A stretch of DNA of 62,922 nucleotides from an uncultured beta proteobacterium (GTDB lineage Bacteria; Pseudomonadota; Gammaproteobacteria; Burkholderiales; Burkholderiaceae_B), in assembly GCA_903894155.1 (NCBI GenBank), contig CAITPF010000202.1, forward strand, positions 1 to 62,922. Direction: 5' to 3'. Made by a program: the position numbers and the translations under genes. Shown piece by piece: positions 24,581 to 53,916 of this stretch (its first letter is position 1; each line of letters starts with the position of its first letter). The notes under the pieces were generated by a model, which was not told where the DNA came from, ran no database searches, and saw only the letters and a list, made by a program, of their open reading frames with translations.

Positions 24581-24591
24581 CGATGATCCCG

Positions 24592-24951: not shown

Positions 24952-24952
24952 T

Positions 24953-27400: not shown

Positions 27401-27410
27401 GACGTGCTCC

Positions 27411-28226: not shown

Positions 28227-28244
28227 GATGGCTGCCTTCTCTTG

Positions 28245-29126: not shown

Positions 29127-29130
29127 CGTC

Positions 29131-30405: not shown

Positions 30406-30420
30406 AGCGGCTCCTGAAGG

Positions 30421-30477
30421 CAAAAACAAAAAGGCGTCGACCGCTGCCGGGTTGAGCCCAGAGCGGAAGACGCCTTT
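30421..30477 (-). terminator. leader terminator before nrtA (attenuator)
   Basis: On the minus strand AAAGGCGTC (30477-30469) pairs with GACGCCTTT (30438-30430), enclosing a second stem CCGCT/AGCGG. The second arm runs straight into a U-rich tract (TTTTTGTTTTTG, 30432-30421). It ends 16 bp before the nrtA start, so it would stop transcription of the whole nitrate operon unless antitermination occurs. Confidence 0.88.
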
Positions 30478-30484
30478 GTCTGTT

Positions 30485-30509
30485 GGAAACCCGGAATGTC
30501 CGGACTTCC
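30485..30509 (-). promoter_or_regulatory. leader hairpin, probable NasR (ANTAR) binding site
   Basis: The RNA on the minus strand forms a 10-bp stem with two G-U pairs: GGAAGTCCGG pairs with CCGGGTTTCC around a 5-base loop, ACATT. It begins about 4 nt after the predicted sigma-54 start site and lies 7 bp before the terminator stem. This is the position of the 1:2 hairpin bound by NasR in the Klebsiella nasF leader. The loop is one base short of the hexaloop typical of ANTAR targets, as counted by eye. Confidence 0.65.
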
Positions 30510-30523
30510 CATGTCCTTCTTCA

Positions 30524-30539
30524 AGCAAATGTCGTGCCA
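30524..30539 (-). promoter_or_regulatory. sigma-54 promoter of the nitrate operon
   Basis: The minus strand reads TGGCACG-N4-TTGCT, a complete -24/-12 element. The predicted start of transcription is near 30513, about 108 nt before the nrtA ATG, so the transcript contains both leader hairpins. Confidence 0.88.
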
Positions 30540-30598
30540 GCCGTGGGCACGGCCAAAATCAGGGAAATATCCGCCGCCAGGGGTCGATGCGGGCCAAA

Positions 30599-30650
30599 GG
30601 TGCACTCTGCCTGTGCGCAGCGCACGCCCCAATCCCAAAAATGGTGCACC
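30599..30650. promoter_or_regulatory. possible NtrC enhancer half-sites
   Basis: TGCACC, the NtrC half-site core, occurs on the minus strand at 30604-30599 and again within GGTGCACC at 30643-30650. They lie about 90 and 135 bp upstream of the predicted start, a normal enhancer distance. Neither is a full dyad, so they may be weak. Confidence 0.45.
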
Positions 30651-30653
30651 GCA

Positions 30654-31847
30654 CTAGGGCGCGGTATCCAGGCGGGAAACGACTTGCCGGGCGACTGCGG
30701 TGATCTTTTGGCTGGTTTCCATCGAAACGCGTTGCAGGTGCCGGTAGGCCTGAGGGTCGGTCATTTGCTCCCGGTTCATCAGCAGCGCCTTGGCGCGATC
30801 GATCAGGTGCCGCTCGCCCAGGATCTGGTGCAGGGCGCGCAGCTCGGCTTCCACGGCGACGAGGCGGCACGACTGCGATGCCACCAGTTCAAGGGAGGGT
30901 TGCGCGGCATCGCCGGCGCGCGCAGCCTGGTCCGGGGCCGCCCCGGGCTCCCGGCAGGCCGCTGTCAGGGCTTCGCCCAGCCGGGTTTCCAGTGTATGCA
31001 AGTGGTCGATATAGGCCGTGGCCTGGTCGAACCAGAGCAGGACAGGCGGGTTCGCCAGCGGTGAGCCATCGGTCGGAGCGTGCTGGGCCAGCGCGCGCAA
31101 GCGATCAAGCTCGGGGGCGACCGGGCCCGCGAGAAAACGCTCGTGCAGCGCGACGAGATCGGCAGGCGCCTGCCGGGCGAAGAGCTCCAGGCAGTGCGCC
31201 TGCCCATTGCGGCGATGATCCAGGGCGGCTTTCAGCGGCTCCGGGATGACGCCCGAGGCAAAGCCTGCGCACAGCAGCGCGCGCTCCTGGCCCGCGAGCT
31301 CCTTGCCCTGCATGACCAGGACCAGGGTCACGAGCACCTTCAGGATATGCGGATGATTTTCCAGTTGCGCCAGTTCGAAGACGACGAGCAACTGCGCTTC
31401 GATGATCTGCGAGAACGACACGATGGCCTGATCGCGCGTGATGCGAGCGCCGTCGACGTCGTCGCGCAGCGCATCCAGCATCTCCAGTGCCTGAAGGGCC
31501 AGCGCAACCTTGTTCAGGAAGCCGTAGCCCATGGCGTTGACGTGTGGCTGGGGCAGCAGTTGATTCAGCGACGCGAGCATGGCCGAGCGGGCCCGGTCCG
31601 ACTCCTGGCGAAATTCGGTCATCAGCTCGACGTAAAGGTGATGCTGGGCAGACAGCCGCAGGTTGGTCGAGCCGCGTTCGCGCTGGAGCGCATGAATCAG
31701 CGCCTGCTGATCCCGTACGACGGCAGTCACCGCAAGCAGCGCCAGGTTGCGCTGCTCGAGCGTGGACTTCAGCTTTGCGGACAGGTGGGACTGTATCTCG
31801 CGAAGCGCGTCGGCGTCCGTCAAAGAGGGCTGGGTGGTTTCGGGCAT
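30654..31847 (-). CDS. nasR: NIT-ANTAR nitrate/nitrite-responsive antiterminator
   Basis: This encodes 397 residues. The N-terminal NIT sensor spans about residues 45-300. ALIHALQRERGSTNLRLSAQ carries the QRERG-type motif, and NHPHILKVLVTLVLVMQGKELAGQERA matches the second half. The C-terminal ANTAR domain (about 335-392) reads GERHLIDRAKALLMNREQMTDPQAYRHLQRVS. In Klebsiella NasR, nitrate binding to NIT exposes ANTAR, which binds leader RNA and prevents termination. The gene lies directly upstream of an nrtA leader with hairpin and terminator, so the target is almost certainly that leader. It is 37 bp downstream of a GntR gene on the same strand. Confidence 0.93.
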   Translation of the reverse strand: MPETTQPSLTDADALREIQSHLSAKLKSTLEQRNLALLAVTAVVRDQQALIHALQRERGSTNLRLSAQHHLYVELMTEFRQESDRARSAMLASLNQLLPQPHVNAMGYGFLNKVALALQALEMLDALRDDVDGARITRDQAIVSFSQIIEAQLLVVFELAQLENHPHILKVLVTLVLVMQGKELAGQERALLCAGFASGVIPEPLKAALDHRRNGQAHCLELFARQAPADLVALHERFLAGPVAPELDRLRALAQHAPTDGSPLANPPVLLWFDQATAYIDHLHTLETRLGEALTAACREPGAAPDQAARAGDAAQPSLELVASQSCRLVAVEAELRALHQILGERHLIDRAKALLMNREQMTDPQAYRHLQRVSMETSQKITAVARQVVSRLDTAP

Positions 31848-41160: not shown

Positions 41161-41190
41161 TTGACACCGCACGAACGGCAATGTGAGAAT
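41161..41190 (+). promoter_or_regulatory. probable promoter of the marR-led operon
   Basis: TTGACA at 41161-41166 and GAGAAT at 41185-41190 are separated by 18 bp. The operator-like inverted repeat begins 2 bp downstream, over the expected start of transcription. Confidence 0.55.
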
Positions 41191-41191
41191 C

Positions 41192-41213
41192 AATCGTCAG
41201 TACACGAACGATT
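41192..41213. promoter_or_regulatory. operator-like inverted repeat upstream of marR
   Basis: AATCGT-N10-ACGATT is a perfect 6-bp inverted repeat with 16 bp between centres, the spacing expected for a MarR dimer. The direct repeat CACGAACG occurs at 41170 and 41203, one copy inside the inverted repeat. The region could control both divergent transcription units. Confidence 0.6.
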
Positions 41214-41237
41214 AACGTAAACCCGCGGGAGAACCGC

Positions 41238-41780
41238 TTGGCCCAACGCAGCGCCCTACGAACACCCTCGCGCACCGGCGTCGTCGCCAGTCCGTTGCCG
41301 CGCGGGCCGGGCTACACGATCTGGGATCGCCCCGGGTACCTGGTGCGCCGCCTGCACCAGATCCACGTGGGCCTGTTCCTGCGCCATGTGGCGCATGGGC
41401 AGGTGACGCCCGTGCAATACGGACTGCTCAGCATCCTGGTCAACCGGCCGGGCATCGACCAGTCGATGATTTGCGAAGAGCTCGGCCTGGATCGCGCGAA
41501 CGTGGCCGACATTCTCAAGCGGCTCGAGTCGCGCAACCTGGTTTCACGCGTGATCGATCCCGAAAATCGCCGGCGCAAACTCTGCCTGGCGACGCCGCTC
41601 GGCCAGGATTTCGTCACACGCTACCGCGCCGATATGCAGCGATCCCAGAAGCAACTGCTCAGCCCGCTCTCGACCGATGAGCAGGCCGTCTTCATGGAAC
41701 TGCTCGCACGGCTGGTCCAGGGCAACAACGAGGGTAGCCGCACCGCGCTCAGGCCCGGTGGCGAGCAACTCGACATCTAG
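41238..41780 (+). CDS. MarR-family transcriptional regulator
   Basis: This encodes 180 residues starting at a TTG at 41238 with GGGAGA upstream. The winged helix-turn-helix is at about residues 60-130: TPVQYGLLSILVNRPGIDQSMICEELGLDRANVADILKRLESRNLVSRVIDPENRRRKLCLATPLG, read here in pieces of the usual MarR pattern. The C-terminal helix forms the dimer. It heads a rightward operon of ring-reducing, ring-opening and molybdenum hydroxylase genes and diverges from two Bug receptors. Its ligand is probably the pathway substrate or a product. Confidence 0.9.
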   Translation: MAQRSALRTPSRTGVVASPLPRGPGYTIWDRPGYLVRRLHQIHVGLFLRHVAHGQVTPVQYGLLSILVNRPGIDQSMICEELGLDRANVADILKRLESRNLVSRVIDPENRRRKLCLATPLGQDFVTRYRADMQRSQKQLLSPLSTDEQAVFMELLARLVQGNNEGSRTALRPGGEQLDI

Positions 41781-41818
41781 AAGTTTTTGCGCGGGATTCC
41801 CGCATCCGGAGGCAAGGC

Positions 41819-43135
41819 ATGGCTGATCTATCCCTCGACTTCTGTGGCGTGAAGTTCAAGCACCCGATCGTGATCGCGTCGCTTGAAACGACCAACAGCC
41901 CCGAGGTCATCCGCGAATGTGTCGATGCGGGCGCCGCCGGCATGATCATCAAGACGCTGACCGACATCGAGGATATGGCGCGTCTCACCCAGAACTCGAA
42001 GTACGCGATCCTCAATGAAAAGAACGAGCTGATCCGCGGCAAGGTCAACAAGAATTTCGTCTTTTACAGCCGCTCGGGCTACTCCAGCACGCCGCTCAAG
42101 GAGTGGATCCCGCACCTGACCGAGCTGAACAAGTATGCGCAGGGGCACGGTTCGCACCTGATCGGTAGCGCCGGCGGCAAGACGGTGCAGAGCTGGGTCG
42201 ATATCTGCCGCACGATCGAGGATTGCGGCCTGCCGATGGTCGAGCTCAACTTCGGCTGCCCGCACCCGGCGATGATGCCCGGCGTGCATGGCGGCTCGAT
42301 GATCGGGCAGGATCCGGAGGTCGCAGCCGAAGTGACGGCGCGCGTGTGCGAGGCGGTGGGCATCCCGGTCATCATCAAGCTCACGCCGGATCAGTCCCGC
42401 GTGGTTGAGGTGGCGCGTGCCGTCAGGGATGCGGGCGCGGCTGGCGTGACGGCAACCAACCGCTATACCGGGTTCTCGGTCGACATCGAGACCGGGATGC
42501 CGCGCCTGGGTGGCCCGGCCGGGATCGGCGGGGTGTGGGCCAAGGCGCTTTCGTTGCGCTGGGTCCACCGCATCTATAACGAGCTTGGCATGCCGATCAC
42601 GGGCTCCAACGGCATCTACGATCACCGTGACATCGTCGAATTCATCATGACAGGCGCGCCGCTGGTCCAGGTGGGTTCGGTGCTGATGCTCAAGGGAATC
42701 AAGTACCTGCCCCACATGATCACGGGCCTGAACGAGTTCATGGACACGCACGGTTACCCGGATGTCGCATCCATGACGGGAATCGCTTCGCGAAACGCCG
42801 TCAAAGATTACGGCGAGCAGTTCCGCAAGCCGCGCATGCACAGCGAAATTGCGGCCGACGCCTGCAAGAACCCGAGCTGCACGATTTGCATCCAGACCTG
42901 TTTCTACGATGCCCTGGCGCAGGGCGACGGCAGCGTGGAATCGATCCACGCGAACTGCATCGGCTGCGAAATGTGCACCCAGACCTGTCCGTTCGACGCG
43001 ACCAGCATGCATACGACGACCGAGGCGCAGCGTGCGCAGAAGACGTTTTTCCAGATTACCGACGGCGTCTTCGAGCACGGCAAATTCGACAAGGACTTCG
43101 ACCGCGGGATCAAACTGTCGAAGGTGAAGGGCTAA
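41819..43135 (+). CDS. PreA-like dihydropyrimidine dehydrogenase/dihydroorotate dehydrogenase-fold reductase with Fe-S domain
   Basis: This encodes 438 residues. Residues 1-330 form the FMN-binding DHOD barrel: LDFCGVKFKHPIVIAS, MVELNFGCPHPAMMPGVHGGSMIGQ with the catalytic Cys region, PVIIKLTPDQSRVVEVA, TGSNGIYDHRDIVEFIMTGAPLVQVGS. The C-terminal ferredoxin domain has one canonical motif (CIGCEMCTQTCPF) and one unusual one (CKNPSCTICIQTCFY). PreA normally works with the NADH-oxidising PreT subunit, but no preT is present. It probably reduces a C=C bond in a ring lactam or pyrimidine. It is 38 bp after marR and 4 bp before hyuA. Confidence 0.88.
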   Translation: MADLSLDFCGVKFKHPIVIASLETTNSPEVIRECVDAGAAGMIIKTLTDIEDMARLTQNSKYAILNEKNELIRGKVNKNFVFYSRSGYSSTPLKEWIPHLTELNKYAQGHGSHLIGSAGGKTVQSWVDICRTIEDCGLPMVELNFGCPHPAMMPGVHGGSMIGQDPEVAAEVTARVCEAVGIPVIIKLTPDQSRVVEVARAVRDAGAAGVTATNRYTGFSVDIETGMPRLGGPAGIGGVWAKALSLRWVHRIYNELGMPITGSNGIYDHRDIVEFIMTGAPLVQVGSVLMLKGIKYLPHMITGLNEFMDTHGYPDVASMTGIASRNAVKDYGEQFRKPRMHSEIAADACKNPSCTICIQTCFYDALAQGDGSVESIHANCIGCEMCTQTCPFDATSMHTTTEAQRAQKTFFQITDGVFEHGKFDKDFDRGIKLSKVKG

Positions 43136-43139
43136 CCCC

Positions 43140-45260
43140 ATGGCGAGCCATCCCTCTGCAACGACCTATCGCTTCGCGTTCGACATCGGCGGTACGTTTA
43201 CCGACCTCGTGCTGATTGGCAGCGACGGGCGGGTACTCACGGCCAAGGTGCTCACCGGCGTGGGCGATGTCATCACGCCCATACGCGCATCCCTTGAGAC
43301 CATGCTCTCGACGCACGGCATCGCGATCGGCCAGATTGCCGATGTCGTGGTCGGCGCCACCACGGCGGTGACCAACCTGATCATCGAGCGCAAGGGCGCG
43401 GTGACGGGCCTGATCACCACGGCGGGCTTTCGGGACGTCATCGAAATCGCCCGCGAGCTGCGCTTCGACCTGTACAACCTGTTGGCACCCGGCCCCGATC
43501 CGGTGGTGCCGCGCGCCTTGCGCCGCGAAATCGACGAGCGGGTCGACGCGGCGGGCCAGGTGGTGCGCCCCGCGCGTGATGCGCAAATCGAAGAAGTCCT
43601 GCGCGCCCTGGTTGCTGATGGCGTCCAGGCCGTGGCGGTCTGCCTGCTGCACAGTTTCAGTAACCCGGCGCATGAGCAGCGCGTCAAGGAAATCGCGCGG
43701 CGCGTGGCGCCCGGGCTTGCCATTTCGCTTTCCTGCGAAGTGTCGGGCGAAATCCGCGAATACGAGCGCACCGTCGCCACGGTGCTCAATGCATGCGCCA
43801 TGCCCATGGTCGGCCCGTACCTGGGCGCGATCGAGGATGGCCTGCGCGCGATGGGGCTGAACGCGACGCTGCACATCATGCAGTCAAACGGCGGGGTCAT
43901 TTCGCGCGACCTGGGCGAGCGCATGCCCATTCGCATGCTGGAATCGGGTCCGGCCGCAGGCGCGCTGGGCGCGGCCTTCGCGGCGCGCCAGGCCGACACG
44001 CCCAACGTCATGGCCTTCGACATGGGCGGCACGACCGCCAAGGCGTGCCTGGTGACCGGTGGCAGGCCCAATATCACGACCGAGTTCGAGGCGGCGCGCC
44101 AGCAGCGCTTCAAGAAGGGCAGCGGGCTGCCGGTGCGGCTTCCCACGATCGATCTGATCGAGATCGGGGCGGGCGGGGGCAGCATTGCGCGCGTGGACGA
44201 GACCGGCCTGCTCAAGGTCGGGCCCACTAGCGCCGGTTCAAGCCCCGGCCCCGCTTGCTACGGGCTCGGGGGGCAGTACCCGACGGTGACGGATGCGGCG
44301 CTGCTGCTGGGCTACCTGGAAGCAGGCGGCACGCTCAGCGGCGCCGTGCGGTTGCGCGCGGATCTGGCGGAGCAGGCCATCGCCGAACATATCGCACGCC
44401 CGCTTGGCATGACTGTGATCGAGGCCGCCAACGGGATCCACCGCATCGTGTGCGAGCACATGGCGGTAGCGGCGAAGATCCACGCCGTCGAGAACGGACG
44501 CGACATCCGGCGTTACACGCTGCTGGCCTTTGGCGGCGCGGGCCCCATCCATGCACGCGAGGTTGCCCGGCGCAGCGGTTGTGCCGAGATCCTCGTGCCG
44601 GACAATGCCGGCGTGTTTTCGGCGTTCGGATTGCTGGTCGCCCCGATGAAGATGGATCTGGTGCGCACACGATTCACGCGGCTCGCGACGATTGACTGGG
44701 CGGGCATCGAGGCGCTGTTTGGCGATATGGAGCAGGTGCTGACGCGTGAGCTCGCGAGCGCCGGGGTTCCCGCCGGGCGCGTGGAGTTCCGTCGATCCGG
44801 GGATATGCGCTTTGTCGGGCAGGGCTTCGAGGTCGAGACCGAGCTTGCGGGCCGGTTGCATGACGGCATGCTCGAGGATGTCGAACGGCGCTTTCTCGAG
44901 GCCTATCGTGCGCGATTCGGCAATACGCTGACGGGCCAGCGCATCGAAATCGTCAACTGGCGCGTCGAGGCCAGCGTTCCCTCCGCCATCTCCGGTACCG
45001 CAGGTGCAACGCGCGACGCGGCGCAGGGCGAGAGCGCGGCGCGGCGCGAGCGCCAGGCGTTCTTCCCGGATATCAACGCCTTCGTCGCAACGCCGGTGAT
45101 CGGCATCGGCGATCTGCGGTCTGGCGAGGCCGCGCATGGGCCTGCCCTGATCGAGCAGGCCGGGTCGACCATCGTGATCGGCCCGGGCGACACCTACATG
45201 CTGGATGCGTTTGGCAACGTGCGCATCTCGGTCGGGGCCCGCAGCGGCCAATCCGCCTGA
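43140..45260 (+). CDS. hyuA: hydantoinase/oxoprolinase subunit A
   Basis: This encodes 706 residues, full HyuA length. The ASKHA-type ATPase start is FAFDIGGTFTDLVLIGSDG, followed by VVGATTAVTNLIIERKGA and TTAGFRDVIEIARELR. The second phosphate loop is MAFDMGGTTAKACLV near residue 290. IDLIEIGAGGGSIARVDETG and AFGGAGPIHAREVARR complete the family pattern. With HyuB it hydrolyses cyclic imides or lactams such as hydantoins or 5-oxoproline at the cost of ATP. It is 4 bp after the PreA-like gene and 20 bp before hyuB. Confidence 0.93.
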   Translation: MASHPSATTYRFAFDIGGTFTDLVLIGSDGRVLTAKVLTGVGDVITPIRASLETMLSTHGIAIGQIADVVVGATTAVTNLIIERKGAVTGLITTAGFRDVIEIARELRFDLYNLLAPGPDPVVPRALRREIDERVDAAGQVVRPARDAQIEEVLRALVADGVQAVAVCLLHSFSNPAHEQRVKEIARRVAPGLAISLSCEVSGEIREYERTVATVLNACAMPMVGPYLGAIEDGLRAMGLNATLHIMQSNGGVISRDLGERMPIRMLESGPAAGALGAAFAARQADTPNVMAFDMGGTTAKACLVTGGRPNITTEFEAARQQRFKKGSGLPVRLPTIDLIEIGAGGGSIARVDETGLLKVGPTSAGSSPGPACYGLGGQYPTVTDAALLLGYLEAGGTLSGAVRLRADLAEQAIAEHIARPLGMTVIEAANGIHRIVCEHMAVAAKIHAVENGRDIRRYTLLAFGGAGPIHAREVARRSGCAEILVPDNAGVFSAFGLLVAPMKMDLVRTRFTRLATIDWAGIEALFGDMEQVLTRELASAGVPAGRVEFRRSGDMRFVGQGFEVETELAGRLHDGMLEDVERRFLEAYRARFGNTLTGQRIEIVNWRVEASVPSAISGTAGATRDAAQGESAARRERQAFFPDINAFVATPVIGIGDLRSGEAAHGPALIEQAGSTIVIGPGDTYMLDAFGNVRISVGARSGQSA

Positions 45261-45280
45261 ATGACTGGAATCCACCCGAC

Positions 45281-46822
45281 ATGAATCCCATCGATCTCGA
45301 AATCTACTGGAACCGCCTGATCTCGATCACGGACGAGGCAGGCGCGGCGCTCAAGCGCACATCGTTTTCGACCATCGTGCGCGAGTCCAACGACTTCGCC
45401 TGCGTATTGCTCGACACCGAGGCCCGGCTGGTCGCGCAGTCATCGCTGAGCATCCCCGGTTTCATCGGCACGGCGCCGCTGTCGCTGGCCGAAATCCTGA
45501 AAGTGTTCCCCAGGGAAACACTGCGCCCGGGTGACATTCTGTTTACCAACGATCCCTGGATCGGGACGGGCCATCTGCCGGATGCGACGATGGTGGCGCC
45601 CGTGTTCAAGGGTGACAGGCTGATCGCTTTCGCCATGGCGATCGCACACCTGTCGGACATCGGCGGGCGGCAGTGGTCAGCCGACGCCAGCGAGCTGTTC
45701 GAGGAGGGGATCCGGTTCCCGGTGGTGAAGCTTGCCGAGCAGGGCGAGCTCAACCCGCTGCTGATTCAGATCATCCAGGCCAACGTGCGCTCGCCCATGC
45801 AGGTGCTCGGCGATATCGAGGCGCAGGCGGGCGCGCTGCGGCTCGCGCAGAGGCGCCTGGTCGAAATGCTGGAAGAGTATGGCCTTGAGCAGATCGACGA
45901 CATCGCCGCGGCGATCTTCGCCGCCTCGCATGAGGCGGCGCTGCGCGAGTTGCGCAAGATTCCGCCCGGCGTCTACCGCGGCTCGGTCGATTCCGACGGA
46001 TGGGATGAGCCGATCCATATCGAGGCGACGATCACCGTCACGCCCGACGGCGTCACGGTCGATTACACGGGCAGCTCCGACCAGGTCCGGTTCGGCGTCA
46101 ACGAAACTGTGCACCACACCTACGCCTACACCATCTATCCGTTCAAATGCCTGCTGTCGCCCGGCATCCCGAACAACGACGGATTCACGCGCCTGTTCAG
46201 GATGATCGCACCGGAAGGCACGATCGTGAACGCGCGCCACCCCGCGGCGGTTGGCGCGCGGCACCTGATCGGGCACCAGTTGCAGGCCGCAGTTTTCGAG
46301 GCGCTTGCGCCCGTATTCCCGGATCGCGTCCAGGCCGATAGCGGCGCGCCGTTGTGGTCGGTGCTGCTGCGTGGCGTCAACCCCGCGCAGGGCACCTCGT
46401 TTTCGACCATTCTGTTCTTCAACGGGGGCATGGGCGCGATGCGTGATCGCGATGGACCGCCCGCGGCAGGGTTCCCGGCCAATATTTCGAATACCCCCGT
46501 CGAGGTCGCTGAAATGCTCGCGCCGGTGCTGTTTCATGAAAAGAGCCTGCGGGATGGTTCGGGAGGCGCTGGTGCCCACGTGGGCGGCATGGGGCAGACC
46601 GTGTCGTTCGAGTCTCGCTGGGAGGGAAGTATGCGGGTGTCCTTGCTGACCGATCGGACGCGGGTGCCCGCCAAGGGAATCATGGGGGGCGCGCCAGGCG
46701 CGACCGGCCACGTCTGGCTCAATGGGCAGCCGGTGACCCATCCCAAGGGGATCGTCGACCTGAAGGTCGGCGATTTGCTGGAGCTTGCGCTGCCGGGCGG
46801 CGGAGGGTATGGCGCACGCTGA
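45281..46822 (+). CDS. hyuB: hydantoinase/oxoprolinase subunit B
   Basis: This encodes 513 residues of the HyuB family. Motifs are TSFSTIVRESNDFACVLLD, PGDILFTNDPWIGTGHLPD, AIAHLSDIGGRQWSADASE and, at the end, VSLLTDRTRVPAKGIMGGAPGATG followed by LELALPGGGGYGAR. It is the catalytic partner of HyuA. The metal-binding region around NDPW and HLPD/HLSD is intact. The next gene starts 141 bp later, a gap in which nothing convincing was seen. Confidence 0.93.
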   Translation: MNPIDLEIYWNRLISITDEAGAALKRTSFSTIVRESNDFACVLLDTEARLVAQSSLSIPGFIGTAPLSLAEILKVFPRETLRPGDILFTNDPWIGTGHLPDATMVAPVFKGDRLIAFAMAIAHLSDIGGRQWSADASELFEEGIRFPVVKLAEQGELNPLLIQIIQANVRSPMQVLGDIEAQAGALRLAQRRLVEMLEEYGLEQIDDIAAAIFAASHEAALRELRKIPPGVYRGSVDSDGWDEPIHIEATITVTPDGVTVDYTGSSDQVRFGVNETVHHTYAYTIYPFKCLLSPGIPNNDGFTRLFRMIAPEGTIVNARHPAAVGARHLIGHQLQAAVFEALAPVFPDRVQADSGAPLWSVLLRGVNPAQGTSFSTILFFNGGMGAMRDRDGPPAAGFPANISNTPVEVAEMLAPVLFHEKSLRDGSGGAGAHVGGMGQTVSFESRWEGSMRVSLLTDRTRVPAKGIMGGAPGATGHVWLNGQPVTHPKGIVDLKVGDLLELALPGGGGYGAR

Positions 46823-46963
46823 AAATCGTGTTGTCGGGTTTCTCGTTGGCTTTGTTGCTCTTTGCTTGCCCTGTCAGTAACCTTACGCGTATGCGGGCCT
46901 TCGCTCGCAGGTAGGGTTGCCATGCCAGGTTTGTCGGTCTTTTCCTCGATCCAGGAGATCTGA

Positions 46964-48058
46964 ATGCAACGTCGTCGTTTTCTCGCTCGTACCGCATCTG
47001 CCGCAGGCGCTGGCCTGGCCGTGCTGGGCACCCCTGCGCTGGCGCAGGGCAACGCCCAGGTCACCTGGCGCATGTCCACCAGTTGGCCCAAAAGCCTGGA
47101 CACGATCTACGGCTCGGCCGAAGAGTTGTGCAAGCGGGTAAGCCAGATCACCGATGGAAAGTTCGAAATCCGCTGCCACGCGGGGGGCGAGATCGTTCCG
47201 GCGCCGCAAAGCATGGATGCGGTCAGCGGGGGCACGGTCGAATGCAACCATACGCTCTCCACGTACTTCCTGGGCAAGAACAGCGCTGTCGCCTTTGATA
47301 CGGGCCTTTCCTACGGCATGAACTCGCGCCAGCACAATGCCTGGCTCTATTACGGCGGCGGCATGCAGATGCTGCGCGATCTCTACAAGAAGTACAGCAT
47401 CGTCAACTTCACGTGCGGCAACGTGGGCGTGCAGATGGGCGGCTGGTACCGCAAGCAGATCAGGTCGGTCGAAGACCTCAAGGGCCTGAAGATGCGCATC
47501 GGCGGGATCGGCGGCATGGTGTTGTCCAAGCTCGGCGCGGTTCCCCAGCAGATTCCCGCCAGCGACATCTATTCCGCGCTCGAAAAGGGCACCATTGACG
47601 CGGCCGAATGGATCGGCCCCTACGACGATGAAAAACTCGGCCTGAACAAAGTGGCGCCGTTCTACTATGCGCCAGGCTGGTTCGAGGGCAGTGCCTCGAT
47701 CACCACGATGGTCAACGACAAAGCGTGGGCTGCATTGCCGCCGGCCTTTCAGGCAGCGTTCGAGGCGGCCTGCTCCGAGCAGAACGTCAAGATGCTGGCG
47801 CACTACGATGCGCTCAACCCCGATGCACTGCGCAAACTCGTCTCGGGCGGTGCCAAGCTCGGCTATTTCCCGAAGGACGTGATGGATGCGACCTTCAAGG
47901 CCTCGCAGGAACTCTGGAAGGATCTTTCCGCCAATAACCCTGACTTCGCCGCGATCTTCCCGGGCTGGCAAAAATTCCAGCAGTCCCAGGCCAGCTGGTT
48001 CCGGGTCTCGGAGCAGTCGCTCGACAACTACACGTTCGCCGCTGTCGGTCGCACGTAA
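46964..48058 (+). CDS. TRAP-type (DctP family) solute-binding protein with Tat-like signal
   Basis: This encodes 364 residues. The N-terminus is a twin-arginine signal (MQRRRFLARTASAAGAGLAVL), with cleavage near PALAQG. The mature protein has the DctP pattern: WRMSTSWPKSLDTIYGSAEELC, FEIRCHAGGEIVPAPQSMDAV, WYRKQIRSVEDLKGLKMRIGG and QQIPASDIYSALEKGTIDAAEWIGPY. The last segment resembles receptors for alpha-keto acids or lactate with a bound metal. No DctQ/DctM membrane genes are nearby. It is inside the operon between hyuB and the molybdenum hydroxylase, so it may bind the pathway substrate or be a periplasmic chaperone for it. Confidence 0.9.
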   Translation: MQRRRFLARTASAAGAGLAVLGTPALAQGNAQVTWRMSTSWPKSLDTIYGSAEELCKRVSQITDGKFEIRCHAGGEIVPAPQSMDAVSGGTVECNHTLSTYFLGKNSAVAFDTGLSYGMNSRQHNAWLYYGGGMQMLRDLYKKYSIVNFTCGNVGVQMGGWYRKQIRSVEDLKGLKMRIGGIGGMVLSKLGAVPQQIPASDIYSALEKGTIDAAEWIGPYDDEKLGLNKVAPFYYAPGWFEGSASITTMVNDKAWAALPPAFQAAFEAACSEQNVKMLAHYDALNPDALRKLVSGGAKLGYFPKDVMDATFKASQELWKDLSANNPDFAAIFPGWQKFQQSQASWFRVSEQSLDNYTFAAVGRT

Positions 48059-48081
48059 CTCTCAGGACGGATATCGCGGGC

Positions 48082-50529
48082 ATGGCACAACACGGGGATC
48101 GCAGCGGGGTGAAGGCACAGGGCATTGGCGCGCGCGTCCTGCGCAAGGAAGATGCACGTCACCTGCACGGCAAGGGCAACTTCGTCGCCGACATGTCGAT
48201 GCCCGGGTTGTGCGAGGTTGCCTTTGCACGCAGTCCGCTCGCGCATGCGCGCATCACCGGGATCGAGATCCCCGCCTCGCTCGAGGGCAGCGTGTTTACC
48301 CGCGAGCACATGGACGCGCGCGACATCGTCGCGGATTCGACGCTGCCGACTTACCAGTCGTCTGCGCAGCCGCCGCTTGCGCATGGCAAGGTTCGTTTCG
48401 TCGGCGAACCGGTCGTGATGGCGGTCGCCCCGACCCGCGCGCTGGCCGAGGATATGCTTGAATCCATCTCGGTCGACTACCAGGATTTGCCGGTCTATCA
48501 CGGGATTGCGTCCGCCCTGGCGCCGGCCGGGCCGCTCGTGCATGAGCACTGGAAGGACAATACCTTCCTGACGCTGAGCATCGACAAGGGCTTTGATGCG
48601 CTGGCGGCGAAGGCCGATGTCATCGTGACGCGCACGATTGACCTGGCCCGGCATTGCATGGTGCCCATGGAAGGCAAGGCGATCCTCGCCTACTGGGATT
48701 TCCAGGCTGACCAGCTGGTCGTGGTCAGCGCCACGCAGGTGCCCCACCTGATCCGCACGGCGCTGGCCGAATTGCTCGACATGCCTCAGGATCAGGTGCG
48801 GGTCATTGCGCCTGATGTCGGCGGCGCGTTCGGCTACAAGTGCGTGCTGCAGCAGGAAGAGCTCTGCGTGGCGTGGCTTGCGAAGACGCGGCGCAAGCCG
48901 TTCCGTTATATCGAGGATCGGCGCGAGCACCTGATCGCGGGCGCCAATACCCGCGAGCATCACTATGAAATCACGGCGTATGCCGATCGCCGCGGCAGGC
49001 TGCTCGCGCTGGACGCGAAAATCACGATCGACGGCGGCGCTTACTCCGTTTGGCCCTTCACGATCGGGATTGAGCCTGGCCAGGCAATGGGCAATTTGCC
49101 GGGCCCCTACGCATTCGAGGGGTACCGCTGCGTCGCGCGCTGCATCGCGACGAACAAACCCGGCTTCGTGCCCTATCGCGGCGTCGCCCGCACGGGCGTG
49201 TGCTTCGCGATCGAGCTCACGCTCAATGCCGTCGCGCGCGAGGTCGGACGCGAACCCTGGGAGGTTCGTCTGGAAAACCTTGTGCAGGCGGACCAGATGC
49301 CCTATGTCAACGTCACCAACAAGCACTTTGACAGCGGCGACTACCCCGCGAGCTTGCGGCGTGCGCTTGAGATGATCGATGTCGAGGCAGTGCGTGCGCG
49401 CCAGCGCAAGGGCGAGCCCGACGGGCGGCTGATCGGCGTGGGCGTGGCCACTTATACGGAGCAGTCCGCGCACGGCACTTCGGTGTTCGCCGCCTGGGGC
49501 ATGCCCGTGGTGCCAGGATTCGACCAGGCGTTTGTGCGCATCACACCAGACGGCGGCCTTGAAATGCGCGTTGGCGTGCATTCGCATGGCCAGGGCATGG
49601 AAACCACCTTCGCGCAGGTCGCGCACGAAGTGCTCGGCATCGACATCGCCAGGATGAAGCTCGTGCACGGCGACACGGGCCAGACGCCCTATTCGAGCGG
49701 CACCTATGCGTCGCGCTCGATGGTGATGTCCGGCGGGGCGGTTTCGCAGGCCTGCAAGATGCTCGTGCCCCGTATCCTGCACATCGGCGCGCATCTTCTG
49801 CAGGTGCCCCAGGAGCAGGCGACGCTCTCCGATGGCCACGTGCATGGCGGCGGCAAGTCGGTGTCGATCCGGCAGATCGCCCAGGCCTGGTATCTCAGCC
49901 CGCAGCTGCTTCCCGCAAACGTCGATGCCGCAGGCCTCGAGGCCACGGTGGGCTACAAGGCCCGGGTCGACACGGGCGCCTTTACCTACGCATCGCACGC
50001 GGCGGTGGTCGCGGTTGACCCGGACTTCGGTTCGGTCGAGATCCTCGACTACGTGGCCGTCGAGGATTGCGGCGTCATGGTCAATCCGATGGTGGTGGAA
50101 GGCCAGGCGATCGGTGGCATCGCCCAGGGCATCGGCACCGCGCTCTACGAAGAAATGCCCTACGACGCGTTTGGCCAGCCCCTGGCCTCGACACTGGCCG
50201 ATTACGTGATGCCAGGCGCCACCGAGGTGCCGAACGTACGGATCGAGCACTTCGAAACGCCCTCGCCGCATACCGAGTTCGGTGCCAAGGGCATGGGCGA
50301 GGGTGGCGCCATTGCGCCGCCGGCGGTCATCTTTGGGGCTGTCAACGATGCACTGGCCCGCCTGGGTGTGCCAGAGTTGTCCAGCACGCCACTGACACCG
50401 CGCCGCCTGCTCGAGGCTCTGGCGGGCTATGGCGCCCCGCAAGCGGATGCGCCCGTCAAGGCCGCAAGCCCCAAGCGCGCCAGCAAGACGCCCAGGAAGG
50501 CCAAGGTACCGAAGGGGGACCAGGCATGA
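48082..50529 (+). CDS. xanthine dehydrogenase-family molybdenum-binding subunit (CoxL-like)
   Basis: This encodes 815 residues. The N-terminal a/b hammerhead is at about 15-130 (IGARVLRKEDARHLHGKGNFVADMSMPGLCEVAF). Molybdopterin cytosine dinucleotide regions are APDVGGAFGYK near 250, PYRGVARTGVCFAIE near 365 and GVHSHGQGMETTFAQVAHEVLG near 500. The catalytic Glu is Glu740 in AKGMGEGGAIAPPA. The CO dehydrogenase signature (AYxCSFR) is absent, so this is not a CO oxidiser but a hydroxylase of an organic substrate. The last 30 residues are a basic Lys/Ala/Pro tail, unusual for the family. Its stop overlaps the next start by 4 bp. Confidence 0.92.
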   Translation: MAQHGDRSGVKAQGIGARVLRKEDARHLHGKGNFVADMSMPGLCEVAFARSPLAHARITGIEIPASLEGSVFTREHMDARDIVADSTLPTYQSSAQPPLAHGKVRFVGEPVVMAVAPTRALAEDMLESISVDYQDLPVYHGIASALAPAGPLVHEHWKDNTFLTLSIDKGFDALAAKADVIVTRTIDLARHCMVPMEGKAILAYWDFQADQLVVVSATQVPHLIRTALAELLDMPQDQVRVIAPDVGGAFGYKCVLQQEELCVAWLAKTRRKPFRYIEDRREHLIAGANTREHHYEITAYADRRGRLLALDAKITIDGGAYSVWPFTIGIEPGQAMGNLPGPYAFEGYRCVARCIATNKPGFVPYRGVARTGVCFAIELTLNAVAREVGREPWEVRLENLVQADQMPYVNVTNKHFDSGDYPASLRRALEMIDVEAVRARQRKGEPDGRLIGVGVATYTEQSAHGTSVFAAWGMPVVPGFDQAFVRITPDGGLEMRVGVHSHGQGMETTFAQVAHEVLGIDIARMKLVHGDTGQTPYSSGTYASRSMVMSGGAVSQACKMLVPRILHIGAHLLQVPQEQATLSDGHVHGGGKSVSIRQIAQAWYLSPQLLPANVDAAGLEATVGYKARVDTGAFTYASHAAVVAVDPDFGSVEILDYVAVEDCGVMVNPMVVEGQAIGGIAQGIGTALYEEMPYDAFGQPLASTLADYVMPGATEVPNVRIEHFETPSPHTEFGAKGMGEGGAIAPPAVIFGAVNDALARLGVPELSSTPLTPRRLLEALAGYGAPQADAPVKAASPKRASKTPRKAKVPKGDQA

Positions 50530-51368
50530 AAGCCGCTGCATTCGCCTATCGGCGCGTGAATTCGCTTCACTCAGGGCTCGTGCAGGTCGCAAGCGCCGGC
50601 GATACCGTCAAGATCATGGCGGGTAGCCAGTCGCTCGGGCCGATGCTCAATTTGCGCCTGGCACGCCCGGGCACGCTGATCGACATCTCCGGCATGGAAG
50701 AATTGCGCGTTGCCGCGCTCGAGGGCGACACTCTGCGTCTGGGCTCAGGGCTCACGCACGCCGAAATCGAGGATGGTGAGTTCGAGGCGATTGCAAACCA
50801 TCCCTGGCGCCGCATCGCTGCGCAGATCGCCTACCGGGGCATTCGCAACCGCGGAACGCTGGGCGGCAGCCTGGCACATGCGGATCCGGCTGCCGACTGG
50901 GTGCTGGCGGCCTGGGCCTTCGGCGCGCAGGTCGAGATCGCATCGCGGCAAGCCACACGGCGCGTCGCGATCCAGGATTTCATGACGGGAGCCTATGCGA
51001 CAGTCCTCAAGTCCGACGAAATCCTCGTGGCGGTGTTGCTCCCGCGATTCGATGCGGGCGTGCGCTGGGGCTATTACAAATTCTGTCGCAAGCCGGGCGA
51101 ATTCGCGTTGGCCAGTTGTGCCGCTGTATTCGGCCCCGCGCCTTCGTCCGCGCGCGTAGTAATCGGCGCGCAGGATGGCACGCCACGCAATCTTGAGGCG
51201 CTGGCCGGCCAGGTCGCGCGCGGCGGTATCGCTGCCGCTACCCCGGCGGCGATTGACGAAGCCCTTGGCGAGGCGATGCCTGGCAAGGATGCAATTGATC
51301 GAAAATTTTTCGCCAGCGTCGTTCGACGCTGTCTGGAGCAGGCGCACGGCCTGCGGGAGGTCGCGTGA
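50526..51368 (+). CDS. molybdenum hydroxylase FAD-binding subunit (CoxM-like)
   Basis: This encodes 280 residues from the ATG at 50526 (ATGA overlap with the previous gene). The FAD_binding_5 domain shows VKIMAGSQSLGPMLNLRLARPGTLIDI near residue 35 and AYRGIRNRGTLGGSLAHADPAADW near 105. The CO_deh_flav_C domain is at the end (FAS-like EFALASCAAVFGP). It passes electrons from the iron-sulfur subunit to the acceptor. It overlaps the next gene by 4 bp (GTGA), so all three subunits are translationally coupled. Confidence 0.93.
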   Translation: MKAAAFAYRRVNSLHSGLVQVASAGDTVKIMAGSQSLGPMLNLRLARPGTLIDISGMEELRVAALEGDTLRLGSGLTHAEIEDGEFEAIANHPWRRIAAQIAYRGIRNRGTLGGSLAHADPAADWVLAAWAFGAQVEIASRQATRRVAIQDFMTGAYATVLKSDEILVAVLLPRFDAGVRWGYYKFCRKPGEFALASCAAVFGPAPSSARVVIGAQDGTPRNLEALAGQVARGGIAAATPAAIDEALGEAMPGKDAIDRKFFASVVRRCLEQAHGLREVA

Positions 51369-52987
51369 CCCGAGTCAGCCTGAACGTCAACGGCATTCCA
51401 ACCAGCGCCGAGGTTGAGCCGCGCGTCCACCTGGGCGATTTCCTGCGTTCGCAGGCGGGCCTGACGGGCACGCACCTGGGGTGCGAGCACGGTGTGTGCG
51501 GCGCCTGCACGGTGCTGCTTGACGGCAAGCCGGTGCGGTCCTGCATTACGTTTGCGGTTGCGTGCGAAGGCCGCAACGTCACCACCATTGAAGGTTATGA
51601 CGATGATCCGGTAATGGGCCGACTGCGTGCGGGCTTTACCGCGCATCATGCGCTGCAGTGCGGCTATTGCACCCCCGGCATGCTCGCCACGGCGCGCGAC
51701 ATCGTCCTGCGCCTGCCTGAGGCGGACGAGGCGACGGTACGACTCGAGCTGTCGGGCAACCTGTGCCGTTGCACCGGCTACGTCGGCATCGTGGGCGCCA
51801 TCATGTCGGTGCTCGCCGATTTGCGGCAGAAGCCCGACCAGGCGATCGACGCGCTCAGGCCCAAGACTGCGCAAGGCAGTGGGGCGACCGCTGCGCGCGC
51901 CGTGCCGGCCCGGCCAACCAGCGTATCGACATCACCGCTTTTTGCTTCGGCAGTCAACGTACCGGCGCCCGCGCCGCAGGCCGCTCCAGAGGCCGCGACT
52001 TACGCCGAACCGACGCCAGCCGGCGCGGTACCCGCGCCTTCCCCGGTAGCGGCACCTGCTCCTGCGCCCGCTCTTGCACCGGCTCCCGCTCCCGCGGCGA
52101 CAGTCGCACACGCACACGTACACGCACACGTACACGTACCCGTACCCGTACCGGCACCGGCACCGGCACCGGCACCCGCACCCGCACCCGCACCCGCGTT
52201 TGAGGCGTCACCTCGTCCAGCACCAGCCTCAATGTCGACGCCGCCCCCGGTGACTCGGGTTCAGCCCTTGGTTGCTCCCTCGGGCGGGCCGGTGGCGGCC
52301 GACCCGGCTTTCGAGGGCGAGCCCATCACGGCAATCGCGGCGTTCATGGCGGCAACCGGTGGCGTCCCCGCAGCGAAGGTGCAGGAGCCCTTAGCCGCGC
52401 GCACGGCGCCTGCACCGGCACCGCCGCCAAAGGGTACACAGATTGAAGCCATGTTCGAGGTCCTGGCGGATATCAAGACGGTTTGGAAGTTCATGGTCGA
52501 TTTGCCGGCGGTGGCGTCATGCCTGCCGGGAGCAAGCGTCGAGGAATTGAATGGAGACCAGGTCAAGGGAAGGATTTCCATCAAATTCGGGCCGATGAAC
52601 GCAGCGTTCGTCGGGTCCGCGCGGCTTGATCGCGACGATGAAACAAAAGCTGCCGTGCTGCGCGGCGCCGGTCTGGATTCGCTCAGCCAGTCACGCGCGA
52701 CGGGCGACGTGCATTACCGGCTCGAGCCTGCGTCGCCCGGCACCACGACCGTGCATGTTGCGCTCATCTATACGCTGCAGGGGCCGCTCGCGCAGTTTTC
52801 GCGTTCCGGCCTGGTTCAGGATTTCGTGCGCCGCATGGTTGTTGATTTTGGCGCCAACGTCAACGCGCGCCTTCAGCACGCGTCGGACGACAAGCCACCC
52901 CCGCCGCAGCAGTCGTCGATCAATCCTGTTTCGATCATGTTCAGCGTCATCTGGCGTCGATTCATGCGCCTCTTCGGGCGCGGCTAG
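51365..52987 (+). CDS. molybdenum hydroxylase [2Fe-2S] subunit fused to a CoxG (SRPBCC) domain
   Basis: This encodes 540 residues starting at a GTG. Residues 1-160 are a complete CoxS-type subunit. The plant-type cluster is GCEHGVCGACTVLLDGKPVRSC and the second cluster is CGYCTPGMLATA with LCRCTGYVGIV. About residues 175-358 form an Ala/Pro/Val linker with alternating AP and HV/PV steps. Residues 360-505 are a CoxG/SRPBCC domain (IEAMFEVLADIKTVWKFMVDLPAVASCLPGAS; GRISIKFGPMNAAF). The end is an amphipathic tail (NPVSIMFSVIWRRFMRLFG). CoxG proteins anchor CO dehydrogenase to the membrane, so the fusion may tether this hydroxylase and hand electrons to quinone. The last step is inference. Confidence 0.92.
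   Translation: MTRVSLNVNGIPTSAEVEPRVHLGDFLRSQAGLTGTHLGCEHGVCGACTVLLDGKPVRSCITFAVACEGRNVTTIEGYDDDPVMGRLRAGFTAHHALQCGYCTPGMLATARDIVLRLPEADEATVRLELSGNLCRCTGYVGIVGAIMSVLADLRQKPDQAIDALRPKTAQGSGATAARAVPARPTSVSTSPLFASAVNVPAPAPQAAPEAATYAEPTPAGAVPAPSPVAAPAPAPALAPAPAPAATVAHAHVHAHVHVPVPVPAPAPAPAPAPAPAPAFEASPRPAPASMSTPPPVTRVQPLVAPSGGPVAADPAFEGEPITAIAAFMAATGGVPAAKVQEPLAARTAPAPAPPPKGTQIEAMFEVLADIKTVWKFMVDLPAVASCLPGASVEELNGDQVKGRISIKFGPMNAAFVGSARLDRDDETKAAVLRGAGLDSLSQSRATGDVHYRLEPASPGTTTVHVALIYTLQGPLAQFSRSGLVQDFVRRMVVDFGANVNARLQHASDDKPPPPQQSSINPVSIMFSVIWRRFMRLFGRG
52105..52198 (+). repeat. hexanucleotide tandem repeat inside the CoxS-CoxG linker
   Basis: About 15 tandem six-base units run in blocks: CACGCA/CACGTA, then CCCGTA, CCGGCA and CCCGCA. 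They encode the alternating HV, PV and AP part of the linker. The unit is a multiple of three, so slippage would change linker length without shifting frame. Confidence 0.85.
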
Positions 52988-53916
52988 AGCGCGCTGGCAT
53001 CGGCCCAGGCGCCGCGTGCGCAGAGGTCGTGCGCGACGCGTTGCACCAGCGATCCGACCGATCGCGCAGCCGCCGAGAGCGGAATTTGCCGCGAGCGACA
53101 GAGCGCAACCATGCGGGTGACCCCCGGGGGGCGAATCGGCAGTGCCACAAGTTGGCCGCCATCGATCTCCGGCTTCAGGGGCATGGTTGGCAGGATCGTG
53201 CATCCCATCCCCGCAAGCAGCGATGTGCGCAGGATACTGATCGAGCTGATGTCGGCGATCACGTTGGCGGGCGGCAACCCTGCGCGGGCTGCGGCCATTT
53301 CGATGATCGGACGAACGCCGTGCGGCGGGGCCGGGAGGATGAGCGGACTGCGCAGCGCATCGCCAAAGCTCACGCTGCGGCGCGTCGGCTTGCCCAGCAG
53401 ATCTGCCCTGCCGATCAGGGACATGCGTTCGGACACCATCGGCTCGACCACGAAATCATCGAGTTGCCCGTCGTCGAACAGGATCGCCAGATGCAGCGAC
53501 CCGCTCAGCAACTGGCGGGTGAGGTTGCCGGTGAGTTCTTCGGTGAGTTCAAGTTCCACGCGTGGCAATTCGGCCCGAACGGCCGTGAGGATCGGCAACG
53601 CCAGTGCGTTCGATGCGCTGTGCGGGATGCCCAGCACGACCTTTCCCGCCGGAGTGTCGCCGATACTTGCGACGCTTGCGCGAGCGTCGTCCACCTGACG
53701 CAGGATGGATACCGCGTGGGCATGAAAGATTTCACCTGCTTCGGTGAGCGCGACGCCGCGCCGCGAGCGGTGGAACAGCGCGGCACCCAGTTCGTTCTCG
53801 AGTTGGGCGAGCTGGTGGCTGAGGGCGGATTGCGCCACAAAGACCTTCCCGGCGGCCTTGGAAAACGTGCCGTGCTCGCAAATTGCCACGAAGTAACGCA
53901 GTTGTCGCAGTTCCAT
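52984..53916 (-). CDS. LysR-family transcriptional regulator
   Basis: This encodes 310 residues. The N-terminal winged HTH is MELRQLRYFVAICEHGTFSKAAGKVFVAQSALSHQLAQLENELGAALFHRSRRGVALTEAG, read here in the usual LysR pattern. The effector domain follows (KVVLGIPHSASNALALPIL; LHLAILFDDGQLDDFVVEPM). It resembles NAC/Cbl-like LysR proteins by eye. Its stop overlaps the CoxS-CoxG stop by 4 bp on the opposite strand, so it is convergent with the molybdenum hydroxylase operon. Its T-N11-A box faces a gene-free region. Confidence 0.92.
   Translation of the reverse strand: MELRQLRYFVAICEHGTFSKAAGKVFVAQSALSHQLAQLENELGAALFHRSRRGVALTEAGEIFHAHAVSILRQVDDARASVASIGDTPAGKVVLGIPHSASNALALPILTAVRAELPRVELELTEELTGNLTRQLLSGSLHLAILFDDGQLDDFVVEPMVSERMSLIGRADLLGKPTRRSVSFGDALRSPLILPAPPHGVRPIIEMAAARAGLPPANVIADISSISILRTSLLAGMGCTILPTMPLKPEIDGGQLVALPIRPPGVTRMVALCRSRQIPLSAAARSVGSLVQRVAHDLCARGAWADASAL

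Follow-up and report, generated by a model that had tools for sequence, protein, structure and literature searches.

A candidate operon for reductive picolinate degradation pairs a PicA-type hydroxylase with a PreA-like reductase and HyuAB in a relative of Zwartia and Sheuella

The window analyzed here is a stretch of 62,922 nucleotides (contig CAITPF010000202.1, assembly GCA_903894155.1) from an uncultured beta proteobacterium whose GTDB genus includes Zwartia and Sheuella. We examined a + strand operon of eight genes (41238-52987), in the order marR, preA-like, hyuA, hyuB, dctP, moL, moM and moS. The operon is probably a picolinate-inducible catabolic unit in which the ring would be opened by reduction and hydrolysis; the reactions, substrate, electron donors and products proposed below are all predicted from gene content, conservation, homology, co-occurrence, tree placement and residue substitutions. 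A preliminary description, made from the sequence alone, had named these genes, and all eight are present on that strand in the order it gave. It had also proposed hydroxylation, ring reduction and ATP-dependent lactam hydrolysis, leaning towards nicotinate-like or pyrimidine-like compounds. Conservation, gene context and active-site residues support the reaction logic, but the PicA module favors a pyridine-2-carboxylate over those compounds. There is a good chance that the substrate class, which that description left open, can now be named.

The substrate is suggested by the 3' half of the operon. Here dctP (46964..48058) encodes a lone tripartite ATP-independent periplasmic (TRAP)-type solute receptor with a Tat-like signal, which contains the Pfam DctP domain and is recognized by the general TRAP_S1 model. 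On reading of the open reading frames (ORFs), neither DctQ nor DctM was identified beside it, no model search having been made for them. The three genes that follow encode a molybdenum hydroxylase: moL (48082..50529), the large subunit with Mo-cofactor domains, assigned to the PicA type (picolinate 6-dehydrogenase) by its identity to moL of pic clusters and by trees; moM (50526..51368), the FAD subunit (Pfam FAD_binding_5); and moS (51365..52987), the [2Fe-2S] subunit (Pfam Fer2, Fer2_2 and COXG). The [2Fe-2S] part of this last gene is fused through a Pro/Ala-rich linker to a CoxG-type domain. A hexanucleotide array within moS (CGCACC, 15.5 copies, window 52076-52197) encodes this linker; in Azospirillum (L136; L and G numbers denote loci and genomes) the two domains are separate genes. 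In NCBIfam the hydroxylase comes closest to CO dehydrogenase and glyceraldehyde dehydrogenase, but neither name was accepted: its scores lie far under the cut-offs (454 bits versus 991 for the CO dehydrogenase equivalog), the loop reads PYRGVAR and differs from AYxCSFR, which we take to be the loop of aerobic CO dehydrogenase, and the best match of moL in the PDB is quinoline 2-oxidoreductase (1t3q).

In the pic route, as outlined in the available text of PMC10142695, the PicA dehydrogenase yields 6-hydroxypicolinate, PicB 3,6-dihydroxypicolinate and PicC 2,5-dihydroxypyridine, and PicD-G lead on to fumarate. We assigned pic clusters throughout by gene content, and the reference PicA is not an assayed sequence. 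The window moL is 75% identical to that of the pic cluster in L160, 71% to L135, 67% to L179 and to L176, 65% to L175 and 58% to L138; moM is 49-53% identical in the first five of these and 43% in L138, and moS matches L160 at 75% and 55% in its two domains. Two genomes of the same family that lack a PreA-like gene, G036 and G032, have a pic gene set with dctP directly upstream of moL. Identities to the window are 72% (dctP), 75% (moL), 53% (moM) and 75/55% (moS) for G036, and 72%, 67%, 52% and 68/54% for G032. The G036 genes lie beside a complete picB-G set, with picG between picC and picE and a second picGEDF copy (3252 bp) that is 99.97% identical; no picG was observed in the stretch from G032. 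The available text of PMC10142695 gives the same position of picG and a second picGEDF copy for Bordetella bronchiseptica RB50. The nearest plasmid copies of the hydroxylase (ten records, 64-71%) are in Variovorax, Caballeronia and Burkholderia. Five of these regions were examined (three Variovorax, one Caballeronia, one Burkholderia) and contain genes for a ferredoxin, an FAD reductase, a Rieske oxygenase, an NTF2-like subunit, an amidohydrolase, a 2,5-dihydroxypyridine 5,6-dioxygenase, an alpha/beta hydrolase and an isochorismatase-type amidase, plus a MarR gene, which is the pic cluster set. Judged in this way, dctP-moL-moM-moS appears to be the module that encodes picolinate dehydrogenase (PicA) in known pic clusters, and for this reason a pyridine-2-carboxylate, most simply picolinate, is the favored substrate.

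Phylogenetic analysis gave a similar picture. In a tree of 40 MoL sequences, 31 with PreA or pic context were split from 9 with neither by a branch supported at 100/100. A group of 18 betaproteobacterial rows of the window type (100/100) included six pic rows; another pic row, from Paracoccus (L138), was sister to the Rhodobacterales-type rows (7 rows, 100/100). PreA context needs four changes on this tree, and none of the 200 bootstrap trees united it as a single group. A quick tree of 63 rows likewise grouped the window with pic rows (23 rows, Shimodaira-Hasegawa-like approximate likelihood ratio test 99), and in it L138 again joined the Rhodobacterales type (13 rows, 100). Because the MoL root is unsure, the PreA and pic rows are described as lying together on one side of a branch and may not form a clade, and the pic trait may be either ancestral or gained. 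Whichever root is taken, the first enzyme, and in the window's family the receptor as well, is common to both contexts, the part that comes after it having been exchanged more than once.

The preA-like gene (41819..43135) encodes a candidate 6-hydroxypicolinate reductase, a flavin mononucleotide (FMN) protein of the dihydroorotate dehydrogenase (DHOD)/PreA fold (Pfam DHO_dh) with two C-terminal [4Fe-4S] motifs. Its PDB matches are DHOD-B and pig dihydropyrimidine dehydrogenase (DPD). The protein scores 223 bits against the NCBIfam PreA equivalog (cut-off 335) and is 28-32% identical to the PreA copies listed. It keeps the active-site Cys of DPD and DHOD (Cys671 equivalent, in the motif GCPHP) and the Asn668 and Asn736 equivalents. 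Pig Asn609, Glu611, Ser670 and Thr737, which we take to be pyrimidine (uracil)-contact residues, are Ser, Ser, Gly and Arg in the window protein, and a second Arg is found at pig position 610. We counted these motifs in the 69 distinct loci that hold the region: Arg-Ser-Gly at the 610 site is present in all 69 (as F[YF][SA]RSG in 68), an Arg comes immediately after the Asn736 site in 67 and one residue further on in two (L121 and L122), GCPHP occurs in 67, and NR[YH]TGF in 65. Canonical PreA and DPD read NIEL and NT at the two Arg sites (PreA of S. meliloti and Mycetohabitans). The two added positive charges in the predicted pocket fit a carboxylated ring, and 6-hydroxypicolinate would, on chemical reasoning, resemble orotate, with a lactam nitrogen beside a carboxyl-bearing C=C.

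Gene neighborhoods also bear on the role of the reductase. Canonical PreA adjoins an NAD(P)-dependent oxidoreductase gene in S. meliloti and in Mycetohabitans, where hydA is present as well; L133 has PreT and dihydropyrimidinase beside preA, and L132 an oxidoreductase with no dihydropyrimidinase beside preA. Within the window operon there is no PreT, dihydropyrimidinase or HyuC gene, the neighbors of the PreA-like gene being marR and hyuA. The changed pocket residues, together with an operon devoid of PreT and dihydropyrimidinase, disfavor a pyrimidine role, and for the same reasons the pyrimidine-like substrate considered earlier is not retained. Genes for FdxA and ferredoxin-NADP reductase (Fpr) are on the locus in 13 of the 25 loci with an amidase-type opener, and Fpr is on the locus in 4 of the 30 with window-type HyuAB (both types are described below). 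Fpr was discarded as a specific marker, because all 22 genomes that were searched have a copy at 52-62%, whether or not they carry the operon (that of G001 in two pieces). PreA-like relatives of Desulfuromonadales type (L121 5944-11218 and L122 3032-8305, 52-54%) have as neighbors a gene of the aldehyde:ferredoxin oxidoreductase family, one for a YjgF/RidA-type protein and one for a BCCT transporter, those of L122 being assigned by clustering.

Orthologues of the oxygenase-route enzymes PicB and PicD (at least 79%) occur only in G032 and G036 among 61 relatives, and in none of the 25 PreA-carrying relatives, the window genome included. In the window's genome the PicB oxygenase subunit has no match at E 1e-100, and the PicD 2,5-dihydroxypyridine dioxygenase none at E 1e-80. 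PicC, PicE, PicF and PicG were not recognized beside the operon in ORF and gene lists, which is a local and not a genome-wide result. Four other genomes of the 61, one of them PreA-positive (G038), have Rieske homologues at 39-48%.

Co-occurrence of the two halves was examined at several taxonomic depths. Within the genus, the PreA-like gene (83-100%) is found in 24 of 32 genomes, the window's own included, and MoL at 71% or more is present in 23 of these 24 versus none of the 8 PreA-negative genomes (Fisher p 8.6e-7, a value that ignores shared ancestry). The exceptions are G025, PreA-positive without MoL at that level, and G003, PreA-negative with a 54% MoL homologue. A search with the PreA-like protein found 76 loci, 70 of them with PreA-like at 45% or more; many derive from metagenome-assembled genomes (MAGs) and short contigs, and counts over related genomes are not independent. 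MoL or MoS of window type is encoded on the retrieved stretch in 43 of the 70, and in 19 of the 24 loci that extend over 9 kb to either side of the PreA-like gene. The genomes from which L083-L125 come were searched as a whole (38 loci, without L090-L092, L114 and L118), and 23 of these 37 genomes have MoL at E 1e-180 or better. Window-type hyuA is held by 30 of the 70 loci, in which identities to the window, counted for loci that cover half or more of the protein, are 58-93% for marR, 83-95% for preA, 66-91% for hyuA and 76-97% for hyuB. Of the 30, 15 have moL and preA on one strand, 8 have them on opposite strands as two divergent units, and in 7 moL is off the retrieved piece. Among 300 genomes sampled evenly from the order, PreA-like was present in 5 and HyuA (at least 71%) in 5, four being shared; the exceptions are G088, where HyuA is cut by the contig end (L183), and G274. 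In G274 (L182 9254-13775) HyuAB (72/81%) is followed by Fpr with no PreA-like or PicA gene, reflecting decay, MAG error or another use of HyuAB. The reductase and HyuAB do occur with the hydroxylase in other genomes, the check for which the preliminary description had asked. Named strains with the HyuAB-type operon are Zwartia hollandica LF4-65, Z. panacis KCTC42751 and Sheuella amnicola NBD-18. Loci of Zwartia/Sheuella type are also carried by MAGs titled Bordetella parapertussis (L060, L062, L071, L079 and L090), which look misnamed.

In the window, hyuA (43140..45260; Pfam Hydantoinase_A, Hydant_A_N/C) encodes an ATP-dependent hydantoinase/oxoprolinase alpha subunit, proposed to activate the lactam, and hyuB (45281..46822; Pfam Hydantoinase_B, 504 bits) the metal-dependent hydrolase subunit of the putative HyuAB lactamase. 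The two proteins have the motifs DIGGTFTD, GHLPD and AHLSD, and the N-terminal signature of HyuA is presumably that of an actin-type ATPase. The nearest NCBIfam model of HyuA is caprolactamase CapA, below its cut-off, and the nearest PDB entry is N-methylhydantoinase 7hk5; against the CapA and CapB equivalogs HyuAB scores 475 and 192 bits (cut-off 1000 each). HyuB has the HxxD and the later His of the CapB metal site, the residues of which are named in the available text of PMC8453981. HyuAB of window type was found only in betaproteobacterial loci, those of Zwartia/Sheuella and some other Burkholderiales; on plasmids all 1003 matching records are below 60%, and the 20 listed are at most 44.5%. 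Since the PreA-like, HyuA, HyuB and three hydroxylase proteins all fall below the curated cut-offs of their nearest NCBIfam enzymes, automatic names are unsafe for them.

Away from the loci with window-type HyuAB, the PreA-like gene is mostly accompanied by amidase plus DUF2848. In place of HyuAB, Ramlibacter-type, Rhodobacterales and some Rhodospirillales loci have an amidase-signature enzyme with a DUF2848 protein, fused in one 686-aa frame in L093; Defluviimonas denitrificans DSM 18921 is a named strain with this version. With thresholds of 60% for HyuA and 35% for amidase/DUF2848, the openers over the 70 loci are HyuAB in 30, amidase/DUF2848 in 25, both in none and neither in 15. A structural model of DUF2848 (L097 13150-13845 and relatives; predicted local distance difference test score 87) has the fumarylacetoacetate-hydrolase (FAH) fold, with Cg1458 as best match followed by FAHD1 and others. 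Enzymes of the FAH fold act on 2-oxo acids. Other genes near preA encode thiamine pyrophosphate (TPP)-dependent enzymes, assigned by models in L087 and L111 and by clustering in L086, and KorAB-type 2-oxoacid:ferredoxin oxidoreductases, assigned by models in L084 and by clustering in L123. An FAH-type gene was also recognized there by sequence reading in L109, L111 and L124. Together with the FAH-fold DUF2848, these genes suggest a 2-oxo acid product. Such a product would match the opening of a tetrahydro lactam to 2-oxoadipate and ammonia, the least certain step of the scheme. No paper on DUF2848 was found among open-licence literature. Two further arrangements were observed. L124 (6104-11332), from an alphaproteobacterial MAG, has a distant HyuAB directly upstream of the PreA-like gene, an apparently separate HyuAB-PreA pairing. 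L088 (11390-19813) and L089 (4113-11979, by clustering) have PreA, cupin and amidase genes with a UbiD-family decarboxylase, a tctC-like gene and a second Mo hydroxylase; this set may act on a dicarboxylated heterocycle, and it fits several readings.

We propose the following scheme. The TRAP receptor would bind picolinate, and MoL-MoM-MoS (PicA) would hydroxylate C6 to give 6-hydroxypicolinate, that is, 6-oxo-1,6-dihydropyridine-2-carboxylate. The PreA-like flavo/iron-sulfur protein, receiving electrons via ferredoxin and ferredoxin-NADP reductase, would then reduce one ring C=C, with the two family-specific Arg residues holding the carboxylate of a substrate that, being orotate-like, is of the DHOD/PreA family type. 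HyuAB would activate the lactam with ATP and then hydrolyze it. If the 4,5 bond is the one reduced, the product would be an enamine decaying to 2-oxoadipate and ammonia; if the ring is fully reduced, it would be 2-aminoadipate. PicR is described as a repressor, reportedly, going by a paper title, and on this ground MarR is expected to repress the operon until substrate is present. Taken jointly, we consider it reasonably likely that these loci represent an undescribed reductive picolinate pathway, in which a 6-hydroxypicolinate reductase family (FYSRSG, NRYTGF) replaces PicB, and HyuAB or amidase plus DUF2848, interchangeable with one another, replaces PicC-G, in Betaproteobacteria, Alphaproteobacteria and one MAG labeled Planctomycetota. 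We found no published reductive picolinate route or PreA-with-PicA pairing in the open-licence literature, which is weak evidence of absence. A conversion of pyrrole-2-carboxylate through pyroglutamate to glutamate, a neat three-step fit, was the candidate first considered; it was dropped when the literature gave nothing useful and the pic evidence then indicated a pyridine ring.

Several observations weigh against this pathway. Five of the 24 long loci (L107, L113, L119, L120 and L123) have no nearby MoL of window type, L123 having a more distant Mo hydroxylase, and MoL at E 1e-180 is missing from 14 of the 37 genomes behind L083-L125, although L083 and L111, among these 14, carry a moL piece at a contig end. 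Two of the 37 carry Rieske genes: in G341, which also has PreA-like genes, a PicB-type set adjoins a MoL, and G369 has a homologue at 50%. The HyuA orthologue is present without a PreA-like or MoL match in one of five order-level genomes (G274), distant HyuAB (HyuA 36%) occurs in two loci, L093 and L124, in the former alongside amidase/DUF2848, and L121 and L122 lack the active-site Cys motif GCPHP. The pic status of L160 comes from gene content and not from an assayed protein of that genome, and the 63-row tree, when rooted by two distant rows, places the neither-context clade inside the PreA and pic rows. With regard to the chemistry, no gene for use of 2-oxoadipate or 2-aminoadipate was recognized in the operon, the genome not having been searched for one, and the need for HyuAB is unexplained because an enamide lactam could open without ATP.

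These data were also weighed against other roles for the operon. The same reductive logic could serve another pyridine carboxylate (nicotinate, dipicolinate or quinolinate) or a substituted picolinate, the specificity of the PicA-type hydroxylase having shifted with the new downstream genes; we regard this as unlikely, though worth considering. In keeping with such a shift, moM (53%) is far more diverged than moL (75%) from the G036 pic copy, a sub-group with PreA and HyuAB (L067, L068, L073, L075 and two others) has a distinct MoL clade at 54-58% identity, and the pic assignments are by gene content. However, MoL of PreA and pic contexts are mixed in two parts of the tree, so that the shift would have to be repeated, and the DctP receptor is also common to two pic clusters. 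It is improbable that the operon consists of two independent modules, one (PicA) for transport and hydroxylation and the other (marR-preA-hyuAB) acting on some different cyclic imide or lactam. The 141-nt gap between the halves, their placement on opposite strands in 8 of the 30 HyuAB-type loci, and HyuAB without the rest in G274 speak for this arrangement, but the genus co-occurrence (23 of 24 versus 0 of 8) is against it. PreA is linked to a PicA-type MoL in Rhodobacterales too, where window-type HyuAB is absent from the locus, and PreA-carrying relatives lack PicB and PicD orthologues, which leaves 6-hydroxypicolinate no other tested outlet.

A conventional uracil or hydantoin pathway, in which PreA would be the dihydropyrimidine dehydrogenase and HyuAB the hydantoinase, has family-level similarity in its favor but is very improbable, and we rejected it on the PreA score (223 versus 335), the pocket (DPD Asn609/Glu611/Thr737 to Ser/Ser/Arg) and the neighbors, PreT, dihydropyrimidinase and HyuC genes being absent from the operon, unlike L133. 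It would also leave the PicA-type hydroxylase unexplained. A reductive picolinate pathway remains the reading that we prefer.

Compared with known systems, the operon appears to work like the nicotinate route and to start like the pic route while being a member of neither. The anaerobic nicotinate route consists of nicotinate dehydrogenase, 6-hydroxynicotinate reductase and enamidase. Like the scheme proposed here, it hydroxylates, reduces the ring and hydrolyzes a six-membered lactam, but with other reductase and opener families and on a 3- rather than a 2-carboxylate. With the pic cluster of Alcaligenes faecalis JQ135 and Bordetella bronchiseptica RB50, as presented in the available text of PMC10142695, the window shares a PicA-type three-subunit Mo hydroxylase and a MarR regulator, and with the pic clusters of two same-family genomes a TRAP receptor directly upstream; it differs in that PreA-like and HyuAB stand where PicB and PicD orthologues are not found, in the window genome and 24 PreA-carrying relatives. 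PreTA and mammalian DPD have in common with the PreA-like protein the FMN barrel, active-site Cys and C-terminal [4Fe-4S] motifs, but identity is 28-32%, the pocket is altered and the operon has no PreT partner, so that PreA membership fails on score, pocket and neighbors. HyuAB shares the two-subunit ATP-dependent lactamase architecture and metal-site residues with CapAB, N-methylhydantoinase and the 5-oxoprolinase family, but scores far under the CapAB cut-offs, and its proposed substrate is a six-ring lactam acid. The anaerobic indoleacetate pathway of Ebenau-Jehle (2012) reportedly involves a Mo hydroxylase and an ATP-dependent ring opening of hydantoinase type; like the window it pairs a Mo hydroxylase with a HyuAB-type opener, but it acts on an indole ring and is not known to include a PreA-type reduction.

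Successive gaps from marR to moS are 38, 4, 20, 141, 23, -4 and -4 nt, so that the spacing noted for most genes in the preliminary description (4-40 bp or 4-bp overlaps) holds for six gaps but not for the 141 nt between hyuB and dctP. The first gene, marR (41238..41780; Pfam MarR/MarR_2), has a TTG start as called, the start being uncertain, and its product is 38-45% identical to MarR of six pic clusters (L175, L176, L181, L179, L138 and L135). Upstream of it lies a putative MarR operator, the inverted repeat AATCGT-N10-ACGATT (41192..41213), with perfect 6-bp arms. Repeats of the type GTATACGAAC are present 5' of marR in some orthologues (L057, L066 and L070), and by the same rule no inverted repeat was found upstream of marR in L056, L069 and L078. 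An operator common to both halves was sought in 20 loci; several of their marR genes have upstream inverted repeats, and no common motif was evident upstream of dctP among the matches listed.

The operon is bounded at its 3' end by a convergent lysR (52984-53916, - strand) and upstream, on the opposite strand, by tctC (Pfam) and a second tctC-like gene. Elsewhere in the window (21755-31847) are molybdopterin oxidoreductase and NIR_SIR-domain genes, resembling an assimilatory nitrate/nitrite reductase, plus a NIT-ANTAR regulator. L066 (4630-9276) and similar loci of Zwartia relatives have another Mo-cofactor enzyme (MoCoBD domains) upstream of marR; by sequence reading the same stretch has a small [2Fe-2S] gene, SoxYZ-like genes and a cytochrome-like gene, a possible link to sulfur.

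Picolinate is a tryptophan breakdown product and a metal chelator. The one genetically described bacterial route for its degradation that we encountered uses oxygenases, according to the available text of PMC10142695. If the pathway proposed here is correct, ring opening would be possible without O2, and Zwartia/Sheuella and many Rhodobacterales could use picolinate at a lower oxygen demand. Functions would also be assigned to the PreA-like family, the HyuAB clade and DUF2848, which models now misname or leave unnamed. Named strains carry the operon, making direct testing possible. More generally, one first step would feed exchangeable ring-opening modules.

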